Position numbers and translations under genes: made by a program
Assembly: GCA_944548615.1 (NCBI GenBank)
Contig: OX155961.1
Coordinates: forward strand, 21,284,773 to 21,348,772
Origin: Micropterix aruncella
Lineage: Eukaryota > Arthropoda > Insecta > Lepidoptera > Micropterigidae
Direction: 5' to 3'
DNA: 64,000 bases
Shown: positions 26,997-62,505 of the stretch, piece after piece
How positions within the stretch are numbered: the first letter of the stretch is position 1
Layout of the letters: the number at the start of each line of letters is the position of its first letter
The notes under the pieces: model-generated
What the model was told of the DNA's origin: nothing
The model's input: the letters and a program-made list of their open reading frames with translations, nothing else
The model's database searches: none

Positions 26997-29227
26997 GAAA
27001 TATTTGATAGTTTTGTGTATATATCCTTTTTAGAATTGATCAATAACATGATTATAAAGTAAATAATTATAAAAGCCACTTACATCGTGACGAAGGATTC
27101 CCTTGATCGGATTCGGGAATGCTTTAGGTGTTAACGAGAATGATGAATGCCTCTCACTTGCGGAAAGAGGAGTAGGTTTAAGTTGGGCCCATTTTTCAAC
27201 TAGTAAACGCTCACCCTTCATCCAATTATCTCAAAAATTAAGCTACAATCCTTCTTTATACGTAAACTCACTCAATTTCCTATTATTTCAGGGGAAATAA
27301 CAAGACAAGATGAGCTACTTGACAGATGGAAGAATTTAAAATTTCGAATTTCGTTTTTTTATTTTCTAAAGGTGCGATATAAAGAAGCTGCGATCAATAT
27401 TCAGCTGAAAACTTAAAACTAAAAGCGTGACATGCCCTCATATCAATGAAAGGAAGCAGTCAGCTCTTTCCTATTAGTTGGAAAGATTACCTTTAACCTA
27501 AATGGATTATTTACAATGAACGAAACATAAAATATGTAAAAATTCAATATTTTGAAATATTTGATAGTTTTGTGTATATATCCTTTTTAGAATTGATCAA
27601 TAACATGATTATAAAGTAAATAATTATAAAAGCCACTTACATCGTGACGAAGGATTCCCTTGATCGGATTCGGGAATGCTTTAGGTGTTAACGAGAATGA
27701 TGAATGCCTCTCACTTGCGGAAAGAGGAGTAGGTTTAAGTTGGGCCCATTTTTCAACTAGTAAACGCTCACCCTTCATCCAATTATCTCAAAAATTAAGC
27801 TACAATCCTTCTTTATACGTAAACTCACTCAATTTCCTATTATTTCAGGGGAAATAACAAGACAAGATGAGCTACTTGACAGATGGAAGAATTTAAAATT
27901 TCGAATTTCGTTTTTTTATTTTCTAAAGGTGCGATATAAAGAAGCTGCGATCAATATTCAGCTGAAAACTTAAAACTAAAAGCGTGACATGCCCTCATAT
28001 CAATGAAAGGAAGCAGTCAGCTCTTTCCTATTAGTTGGAAAGATTACCTTTAACCTAAATGGATTATTTACAATGAACGAAACATAAAATATGTAAAAAT
28101 TCAATATTTTGAAATATTTGATAGTTTTGTGTATATATCCTTTTTAGAATTGATCAATAACATGATTATAAAGTAAATAATTATAAAAGCCACTTACATC
28201 GTGACGAAGGATTCCCTTGATCGGATTCGGGAATGCTTTAGGTGTTAACGAGAATGATGAATGCCTCTCACTTGCGGAAAGAGGAGTAGGTTTAAGTTGG
28301 GCCCATTTTTCAACTAGTAAACGCTCACCCTTCATCCAATTATCTCAAAAATTAAGCTACAATCCTTCTTTATACGTAAACTCACTCAATTTCCTATTAT
28401 TTCAGGGGAAATAACAAGACAAGATGAGCTACTTGACAGATGGAAGAATTTAAAATTTCGAATTTCGTTTTTTTATTATTTTCTAAAGGTGCGATATAAA
28501 GAAGCTGCGATCAATATTCAGCTGAAAACTTAAAACTAAAAGCGTGACATGCCCTCATATCAATGAAAGGAAGCAGTCAGCTCTTTCCTATTAGTTGGAA
28601 AGATTACCTTTAACCTAAATGGATTATTTACAATGAACGAAACATAAAATATGTAAAAATTCAATATTTTGAAATATTTGATAGTTTTGTGTATATATCC
28701 TTTTTAGAATTGATCAATAACATGATTATAAAGTAAATAATTATAAAAGCCACTTACATCGTGACGAAGGATTCCCTTGATCGGATTCGGGAATGCTTTA
28801 GGTGTTAACGAGAATGATGAATGCCTCTCACTTGCGGAAAGAGGAGTAGGTTTAAGTTGGGCCCATTTTTCAACTAGTAAACGCTCACCCTTCATCCAAT
28901 TATCTCAAAAATTAAGCTACAATCCTTCTTTATACGTAAACTCACTCAATTTCCTATTATTTCAGGGGAAATAACAAGACAAGATGAGCTACTTGACAGA
29001 TGGAAGAATTTAAAATTTCGAATTTCGTTTTTTTATTTTCTAAAGGTGCGATATAAAGAAGCTGCGATCAATATTCAGCTGAAAACTTAAAACTAAAAGC
29101 GTGACATGCCCTCATATCAATGAAAGGAAGCAGTCAGCTCTTTCCTATTAGTTGGAAAGATTACCTTTAACCTAAATGGATTATTTACAATGAACGAAAC
29201 ATAAAATATGTAAAAATTCAATATTTT
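26997..29227 (-). repeat. left array, four monomeric A units
   Basis: Units start at 26997, 27554, 28111 and 28671 (lengths 557, 557, 560 and 557), each beginning GAAATATTTGATAG. All carry the A insert. The 560-bp third unit differs by one extra ATT in the T-rich stretch (TTTTATTATTTTC in place of TTTTATTTTC, near 28470). Otherwise the copies look identical. The strand given is that of the exon-like A insert and the HTH-coding B insert. Confidence 0.95.
27030..27221 (-). pseudogene. A-module exon-like frame (representative of 49 copies)
   Basis: On the minus strand each A insert has an open stretch reading [16 protein letters not shown], then [19 protein letters not shown] and [11 protein letters not shown], followed at once by GAT|GTAAGT, a consensus splice donor, and an AT-rich intron-like tail. 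An in-frame stop lies four codons upstream of the Met (TGA-GAT-AAT-TGG-ATG). It therefore looks like a short or terminal piece of a coding exon captured in the satellite. No family recognised. Left-array copies start at 27030, 27587, 28144, 28704 and then every 1,252 bp from 29953 to 41221 (14 copies); right-array copies are on the plus strand every 557 bp from 43392 to 62330 (35 copies). The antisense 65-codon frame over the same DNA is a shadow. Confidence 0.4.
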
Positions 29228-29565
29228 GAAATATTTGATAGTTTTGTGTATATATCCTTTTTAGATCGGTCGATCCATCCGCTCGAACCAGAGAAGTCCT
29301 TGATTTCCAAGTTTTGTGCAATTTGATGAGCTTTTTCTGTAAGTATGGGACCACTTACTGGTAGGTTGGAAGCACGAGCTTGGTGCAGCCACTCGACTAC
29401 AATTTTCTCCAATTCTTCAAATTTTCCAGTCTTTATTTTCTTCCTCTTCGACCCTCCCTCTCTGGAGTTTTCTTCGATTTCCTTTCGATTTTTTAGGATT
29501 GTACGAAACGTAGAAACCGGCAATTTAAGTTCCGCTGCGATCTGAACTTGCGTGAGTTTTTTCAA
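29218..29565 (-). pseudogene. B-module pogo/Tigger-type HTH fragment (first of 10)
   Basis: The minus-strand frame reads KKLTQVQIAAELKLPVSTF, RTILKNRKEIEEN, a basic GGSKRKKIKTGKFEEL segment, then VEWLHQARASNLPVSGPIL, TEKAHQIAQNLEI and SGSSGWIDR, where it crosses back into the shared backbone. This is the N-terminal DNA-binding region of pogo/Tigger (Tc1-mariner superfamily) transposases and their domesticated CENP-B/jerky-like relatives: a psq-type helix-turn-helix followed by a CENPB-type helix-turn-helix, cut off where the family normally continues to FKKRH. No catalytic DDE domain is present. It opens with TTG after a TAG, so there is no evident ATG. Further copies at 30470, 31722, 32974, 34226, 35478, 36730, 37982, 39234 and 40486. 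All are intact and identical except the 35478 copy (Pro to Gln). None occurs in the right array. Confidence 0.75.
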
Positions 29566-61600: not shown

Positions 61601-62505
61601 TCGCAGCTTCTTTATATCGCACCTTTAGAAAATAAAAAAACGAAATTCGAAATTTTAAATTCTTCCATCTGTCAAGTAGCTCATCTTGTCTTGTTATTTC
61701 CCCTGAAATAATAGGAAATTGAGTGAGTTTACGTATAAAGAAGGATTGTAGCTTAATTTTTGAGATAATTGGATGAAGGGTGAGCGTTTACTAGTTGAAA
61801 AATGGGCCCAACTTAAACCTACTCCTCTTTCCGCAAGTGAGAGGCATTCATCATTCTCGTTAACACCTAAAGCATTCCCGAATCCGATCAAGGGAATCCT
61901 TCGTCACGATGTAAGTGGCTTTTATAATTATTTACTTTATAATCATGTTATTGATCAATTCTAAAAAGGATATATACACAAAACTATCAAATATTTCAAA
62001 ATATTGAATTTTTACATATTTTATGTTTCGTTCATTGTAAATAATCCATTTAGGTTAAAGGTAATCTTTCCAACTAATAGGAAAGAGCTGACTGCTTCCT
62101 TTCATTGATATGAGGGCATGTCACGCTTTTAGTTTTAAGTTTTCAGCTGAATATTGATCGCAGCTTCTTTATATCGCACCTTTAGAAAATAAAAAAACGA
62201 AATTCGAAATTTTAAATTCTTCCATCTGTCAAGTAGCTCATCTTGTCTTGTTATTTCCCCTGAAATAATAGGAAATTGAGTGAGTTTACGTATAAAGAAG
62301 GATTGTAGCTTAATTTTTGAGATAATTGGATGAAGGGTGAGCGTTTACTAGTTGAAAAATGGGCCCAACTTAAACCTACTCCTCTTTCCGCAAGTGAGAG
62401 GCATTCATCATTCTCGTTAACACCTAAAGCATTCCCGAATCCGATCAAGGGAATCCTTCGTCACGATGTAAGTGGCTTTTATAATTATTTACTTTATAAT
62501 CATGT
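43617..62505 (+). repeat. right array, 557-bp A units
   Basis: 33 full 557-bp units from 43617 to 61997 plus a partial last unit 61998-62505 that stops within the A insert (ATAATCATGTTA) where (TA)n begins. Every unit is type A without the ATT insertion; there is no B unit. Orientation is opposite to the left array. Unit-to-unit differences are not visible by eye. Confidence 0.95.

Follow-up and report, generated by a model that had tools for sequence, protein, structure and literature searches.

How does a genome come to hold two long tandem arrays of the same repeat, opposed to each other around a small spacer? The window analysed here, a stretch of 64,000 nucleotides of the Micropterix aruncella contig OX155961.1, contains such a foldback, which the preliminary description had taken for a single unusual satellite palindrome. 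We studied its geometry and its repeat unit, and then the copies of the unit in the whole assembly (1.08 Gb, 742 contigs). The foldback is a very large representative of a family of short non-coding repeats with many members, which appear to have been copied from RNA into (TA)n, often from the two sides of a break together, so that the resulting arms face outwards.

Geometry of the foldback

The features of the window are listed below in order of position.

26818–26996, unstranded: (AT)n bounding the left arm on its outer (3') side; the second half of this tract is 19349–19486, beyond a Gypsy element
26997–41747, unit sense on the reverse strand: left arm, 24 units (14 A, 10 B), with its 3' end at unit position 557
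30517–30812, reverse strand: one of the 10 copies of cassette B, an internal stretch of a pogo/Tigger transposase gene whose DNA-binding domain is CENP-B-like
41391–41838, reverse strand: template side of the 448-bp exact mirror, comprising 357 bp of unit and 91 bp of TE-S
41748–42395, reverse strand: TE-S, a dispersed-repeat copy, with its 3' end joined to unit position 1
42433–42616, reverse strand: 184-bp unit fragment in left-arm orientation, unit positions 68–248 with a 3-bp insertion
42639–43086, forward strand: copied half of the 448-bp mirror, starting with CTATACTG, complementary to CAGTATAG at 41831–41838
42730–62505, forward strand: right arm including part of the copied mirror half, 36 units
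43087–62505, forward strand: right arm proper, made up solely of A units; its inner end is near unit position 28 and its outer 3' end near 511
62506–62730, unstranded: (TA)n at the outer (3') end of the right arm

The two opposed tandem arrays were borne out in their coordinates, orientation and number of units (24 on the left, 36 on the right). A 41-bp anchor occurs 25 times on the forward strand, 24 times in the left arm and once in the spacer, and 36 times in reverse complement, always in the right arm. The 25-mers of the foldback region reach up to 25 occurrences in one orientation and 36 in the other, which excludes chance. The description of the spacer, 982 bp with inverted ends of 91 bp, also stood, but the exact mirror at the centre is larger (448 bp). 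Both outer ends carry (TA)n as first reported, although the left (AT)n tract is interrupted by a Gypsy LTR element (19487–26817).

The near or full identity claimed for the copies inside each arm was confirmed. The arms are opposed but they are not mirror copies of each other: the left one consists mainly of A/B dimers (557 + 695 bp), whereas the right one has only A units. In forward coordinates the left-arm cassettes follow the order A-A-A-A-(B-A)x10, with a 3-bp insertion on alternate backbones, and one of the B units in these dimers has a single substitution. The right arm has 35 A cassettes for 36 anchors, unit 1 being devoid of cassette; 34 of its 35 anchor-to-anchor intervals are identical, with 557 bp each, and the remaining one has 327 bp. 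The A units of the two arms differ at none of the 557 positions. Outside the centre, exact inverted matches between the two arms reach 1,481 bp at most. The long arms and the A/B dimers are probably the result of later tandem amplification as DNA. It is physically possible that a transcript crossing the centre would form double-stranded RNA, and that the DNA would extrude.

The copy numbers of the window arms come from one assembly and may be wrong, because there is a gap of 200 N 536 bp past the right (TA)n and N stretches adjoin four of the other loci with the unit (L010, L018, L026 and L046). The opposed orientation is indirectly backed by sister loci that single long reads can span, e.g., L045, L055 and L056.

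The repeat unit and its cassettes

We numbered the 557-bp unit from AAAATATTG to AAATATTTC. Cassette B matches the HTH_Tnp_Tc5 family (E 1.5e-14) and the DNA-binding domain of human CENP-B (1hlv, E 1.1e-18). Its search against the genome returned 34 matches: 10 in the window, 21 elsewhere at 99–100% identity over bases 1–292, and three partial ones. The two matches that we read with their flanks have in common an element some 2.05 kb long, with CAGTAAAATCCGC as inverted ends and an open frame of 535 aa. What the B units hold is part of a young pogo transposon.

Cassette A has a 66-aa frame followed by GTAAGT, which gives it the look of an exon. This frame matched no Pfam family (best E 0.16) and no homologue, and 1-bp indels break it in diverged copies. 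The unit was therefore treated as non-coding, and an array of protein-coding genes was ruled out. Rfam gave no match in the window at the gathering score and only chance-level snoRNA for two units at E up to 5; a search for tRNA found none. As Rfam gave nothing convincing, ribozymes, snRNA and other known RNAs were dropped. Terminal inverted repeats at the 557|1 phase were not significant, since 29 of the 557 rotations score as high, and one exact 24-mer of the unit had no match in viral contigs.

A family spread across the assembly

The first genome search with the unit gave at least 111 matches. We read 30 sister loci (20 of 9.9 kb, three diverged and seven smaller), the 20 first ones being taken from the best-scoring matches, which biases the sample towards young and long copies. 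The view of the foldback as a single oddity was not borne out: outward pairs, mostly flanked by (TA)n, were found at 18 of these 30 loci. Counting the window, all 19 opposed pairs point outwards and every centre is different; several of the pairs in sister loci are under 1 kb. The other loci are one-armed (L014, L020, L025, L031–L033, L042), truncated by N stretches or at the edge of the locus (L010, L018, L040), or wholly within an array (L013, L016). The search for the unit elsewhere in the genome, proposed in the preliminary description, thus succeeded: with up to two mismatches, there are more than two thousand 3' ends joined to (TA)n.

One unit variant is exactly common to L009, L012, L013, L015 and L028, on five contigs other than that of the window. 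The family is therefore young. Exchange within arms, which had been invoked to keep the copies identical, may help to explain both this identity and the A/B dimers, but youth also predicts identity. Arrays do change as DNA, since L013 contains a repeated block of about 5.45 kb. The loci L010 and L014, on different contigs, have 2,804 identical flank bases in common.

Ends and polarity of the copies

As read from the junctions, the 3' ends of the copies cluster on (TA)n, the 5' ends are evenly spread, and the polarity is one-sided. Ends were counted in a hand-compiled table of 46 arms, in which the inner ends of L015(+) and L027(+) were lengthened manually and the short tracts found in L020 and L042 counted as (TA)n. 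We left out L010 (its flank is common with L014), L013, L016 and L040 (arrays reach the locus edge), the extra pieces of L020, L021, L022 and L045, and the B-split pieces of the window. The majority (36 of 41) of the readable 3' ends fall within 85 nt of the unit (positions 473–557), with peaks at 557 (10 ends), 536 (9) and 511 (5). The 45 readable 5' ends are spread evenly over the unit (KS p=0.41). (TA)n adjoins 33 of the 41 3' ends, against one of the 45 5' ends, and among the (TA)n tracts of at least 50 bp in 228 kb, 47 lie near arm ends and 14 elsewhere. We counted against the insertion route proposed below the eight 3' ends lacking (TA)n, including those of the three most diverged copies (L031–L033), and two loci with (TA)n also on the 5' side (L025 and L052). 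Internal 3' ends continue from TA-like letters, and centres have overlaps of a few bases or short fillers; both are raw observations. The presence of (TA)n on both sides masks any target-site duplication.

The same polarity was found across the genome. The internal ATATATA motif was joined to (TA)n 906 times in the orientation of a 3' end and 7 times in reverse (controls 0 and 2), and the unit boundary 1,673 and 2 times (controls 5 and 0). These are counts of ends with up to two mismatches rather than of insertions, and may include duplicated haplotypes in the assembly. Because (TA)n is its own complement, a DNA end within it could pair, at the internal ATATATA of the unit, with one strand of a double-stranded donor as well as with the other. 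A double-stranded DNA donor would thus be copied both ways, and because the polarity is one-sided, a one-stranded template, i.e., RNA, is the simple explanation.

Paired ends

The loci also present outward arms, locus-specific centres and, in most close pairs, one terminal and one internal 3' end, to the extent that the assembled sequence records them. We analysed pairing with exact matches in contigs C1–C4, among the matches listed (the first 100 of 906 and the first 100 of 1,673), which gave 74 ends at 536 and 97 at 557. Among these listed matches, neighbours within 20 kb were head-to-head in 18 cases, tail-to-tail in five and on the same strand in two. The head-to-head pairs, again among the matches listed, were 557/536 in 17 of the 18 cases and 557/557 in one, with no 536/536 pair; independent ends would give 49% of mixed pairs (p=6e-5). 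One of the 18 pairs is L023, which was already in the first sample, and two further pairs that we fetched and read are contiguous head-to-head copies. In the first sample, with hand-compiled positions, mixed ends were found in 9 of 14 loci, which is not significant (P=0.15). The two outer ends were unequal in all of 17 loci, positions being likewise hand-compiled.

The arms of one locus seem to come from one RNA source, because rare variants are common to both: 264T>C in L026, 311G>A in L027, 281G>A in L017 and 487A>G in L015. In neither L015 nor L012 do the two arms mirror each other in the succession of variants met outwards from the centre. This, together with the unequal outer ends, opposes a plain mirror inversion, which we keep for the central 448 bp of the window. 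The inner ends lie at most 45 nt apart in unit phase in 9 of 21 loci, against 3.4 expected (p=0.004), and further apart in the other 12. The centre of L044 is a hairpin, like that of the window.

Proposed route of insertion

We propose that the unit is probably a retroelement, young and high in copy number, non-coding and non-autonomous, whose insertion into (TA)n proceeds by twin-primed reverse transcription. A break or nick in (TA)n, being self-complementary, would leave TATATA-3' ends on both strands. One of these ends would prime at the 3' terminus (position 557) of a tandem unit RNA and start its reverse transcription, while the other would anneal at an internal UA-rich site, most often the AUAUAUA ending near 536, and there prime a second cDNA, templated by RNA of the same origin. 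Both cDNAs would halt at arbitrary 5' points and meet mid-way by end joining, template jumps or snap-back self-priming. Twin priming, in which the RNA 3' terminus is primed by one DNA end and an internal site by the other, leads one to expect pairs with mixed ends, but self-priming could make the same mixed ends, and the short loci do not separate the two routes. The five tail-to-tail neighbours count against the proposed route, as do the window arms (15–20 kb), which are long for a single cDNA.

The centre of the window records a more complex history. TE-S is itself a dispersed repeat, with 1,573 first-look candidates and at least 40 matches in the assembly. In the other copies that we read, a short (TA)n comes next to its 3' end in three of four cases (L030, L047, L049), and an A+T-rich stretch in the fourth (L048). 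The exact TE-S/unit join occurs twice in the assembly, both times inside the window; a source locus for it was sought and the assembly has no instance elsewhere. A natural reading is that the join would result from a template jump, from the 5' end of the unit RNA to the 3' end of a TE-S RNA. The left cDNA would thus run from unit position 1 into TE-S and then into the unit fragment. It would then fold back at CTATACTG and copy 448 bp of its own sequence, and the folded-back copy would be joined to the right cDNA at 43087. Because the window repeats 448 bp of its left sequence reversed from CTATACTG, we read snap-back self-priming as a contributor at some centres, that of the window included.

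Alternative explanations

Could self-priming alone account for the whole family? In that case, a (TA)n-primed cDNA would fold back, copy as far as an internal TATATA, and be joined by microhomology to the other (TA)n end. The hairpin-like centres of nine of the 21 loci, of L044 and of the window fit this route, which likewise predicts one terminal and one internal end and has been inferred for the palindromes of Penelope, according to the part of that work considered here (PMC3846280). The distant inner ends of the 12 other loci and the unmirrored variants of L015 and L012 are at odds with it, and L011 has its longer arm ending at 536 and its shorter one at 557. We thus find self-priming rather unlikely as the only route. 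RNA would be dispensable if broken (TA)n ends copied or captured satellite DNA by break-induced replication, circles or end joining. Apparent TA microhomology at internal 3' ends and the changes of arrays as DNA, e.g., the repeated block of L013, would suit such a donor, but it is very unlikely given how strongly the polarity counts (906:7 and 1,673:2) oppose it.

Opposed arms of tandem repeats around a variable middle also recall foldback DNA transposons that carry tandem repeats within inverted repeats, such as Tetris. Identical inverted termini are not what we found: outer ends were unequal in 17 of 17 loci, each locus has its own centre, and some copies have a single arm (L014, L020, L042), which makes a transposon of this type extremely unlikely. 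An assembly artefact, with arrays misjoined at (TA)n or through foldback reads, would be in line with the N gaps beside the window flank and four sister arrays, and with the flank bases common to L010 and L014. Such an artefact is barely conceivable when the same architecture recurs at 18 other loci with different centres, several of them under 1 kb, and when the window arms are unlike in content. A functional explanation, which is compatible with the proposed mechanism of insertion, is that of a selected hairpin-RNA or piRNA locus silencing pogo or the unit family. The exact complementarity of the inverted arms (up to 1,481 bp) and the 99–100% identity of the B cassettes to pogo copies elsewhere are what such a locus would show, and hairpin RNAs silence drivers in Drosophila simulans, as far as the parts of the two studies considered here report (PMC10292708, PMC10317233). 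However, B is restricted to the left arm, so the pogo part cannot pair inside the foldback, and insertion alone already explains the architecture; we regard selection for silencing as highly improbable.

Implications

Twin priming into (TA)n would bear on two open questions, the spread of satellite families between chromosomes and the origin of long palindromes. The chances seem to us evenly balanced that a self-complementary microsatellite makes twin priming regular, and that a single event plants a head-to-head satellite seed that later reaches tens of kilobases. If true, satellites would have a route to spread between chromosomes and large palindromes a way to start. The junctions of a large young family record the process in countable form: polarity, paired terminal and internal ends, and rare variants in common. 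The same junction test is applicable to other (TA)n-rich long-read assemblies, in which head-to-head arrays at (TA)n are not necessarily errors. Our search, confined to open-access literature, found no account of twin priming with (TA)n as its target, nor of a spread of satellites by such a route, which is weak evidence of novelty.

Comparison with known systems

One close parallel is with LINE-1, where 30.9% of 2,068 L1 insertions are 5'-inverted (PMC2912911). In the part of that study used here, twin-primed insertions have the traits proposed for the unit loci: two opposed cDNAs with terminal and internal priming, arbitrary 5' ends and microhomology, the last being tentative in the unit loci (PMC2912911). 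Compared with these LINE-1 insertions, the unit loci differ in that their target is the self-complementary (TA)n, both priming sites would lie close to a tandem repeat's 3' end, and multi-unit satellite arrays can make up the arms.

Penelope-like elements resemble the unit loci, as interpreted here, in their head-to-head inverted copies, partial tandems, palindromes made by self-priming, microhomology at 5' junctions and mobilisation of other sequences in trans, as described in the portion of the source consulted (PMC3846280). Direct and inverted repeats of the Penelope type were found here, as tandem arms placed head to head, with hairpin-like centres in 9 of 21 loci. Unlike the Penelope elements presented there, the unit has neither a coding region nor a hammerhead ribozyme. 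A genome search with the GIY-YIG profile (PF01541) gave one match, at E 1.5e-6, among the best 150 of 2,730 candidates; this lowers the likelihood of a Penelope partner.

The non-LTR retrozymes of metazoans are, like the unit, short, non-coding, low in GC and tandem, with few to many copies, in the excerpt of the work on which we rely (PMC7229834). The units it describes have about 150–450 bp and type I hammerhead ribozymes (PMC7229834), whereas no such ribozyme was found in the 557-bp unit. Tetris, in Drosophila virilis, has like the foldback inverted arms of tandem repeats, which are able to seed satellite arrays; within the pages considered, it also has an outer terminal domain and target duplications of 8–10 bp, whereas the unit loci have unequal outer ends and unique centres (PMC4079207). 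Finally, the near-identical A/B dimers of the left arm are like the higher-order repeats of satellites, from which the unit loci differ by being small dispersed arrays in (TA)n, with their arms opposed.

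Repeats and mobile elements within and around the arrays

Four further features of the window, listed here by position, concern the central spacer between the two arms and the flanks of the arrays.

8200-11750: G+C-rich inverted-repeat region, surrounding a frame whose DUF4371 match falls below threshold (E 5e-5)
19487-26817: Gypsy LTR retrotransposon, inserted into the left (AT)n
41748-42395: TE-S, a very abundant repeat without a name
62731-63266: LINE reverse transcriptase-like fragment (37.5% over 64 aa against the LINE reverse transcriptase at 6297-6488 of the window)

The TE-S copies were 99% identical among the matches listed, and a short (TA)n followed the 3' end in three of the four other copies that we examined. 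In the window TE-S is joined by its 3' end to position 1 of the 557-bp unit, and both may depend on one enzyme. The Gypsy element has two identical LTRs of 312 bp each and a single open frame of 1,513 aa. The LINE-like fragment is truncated precisely where it meets the right (TA)n; a gap of 200 N lies 536 bp beyond that point. The G+C-rich region is probably a hAT-like element; related stretches were found again in the flanks of several other loci.

Observations at other loci of the family

Two loci on different contigs, L010 (C14:9.53 Mb) and L014 (C31:28.33 Mb), share 2,804 bp of identical flank, and beyond its array L010 runs into N. This could be an assembly misplacement or a recent duplication. 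Within the unit array of L013 (C51:28.96 Mb), a block of ~5.45 kb is repeated, deletions included, a case of amplification as DNA. One unit copy in L021 is split by an insert of ~2.5 kb (3862-6349) with matching inverted ends, probably a DNA transposon.

The pogo/Tigger family, a fragment of which forms cassette B of the left arm, is represented at L038, L039 and further genomic places by elements of ~2.05 kb with an open frame. The genome search retrieved copies that were 99-100% identical at 21 places beyond the window. This ~2.05-kb family is young.
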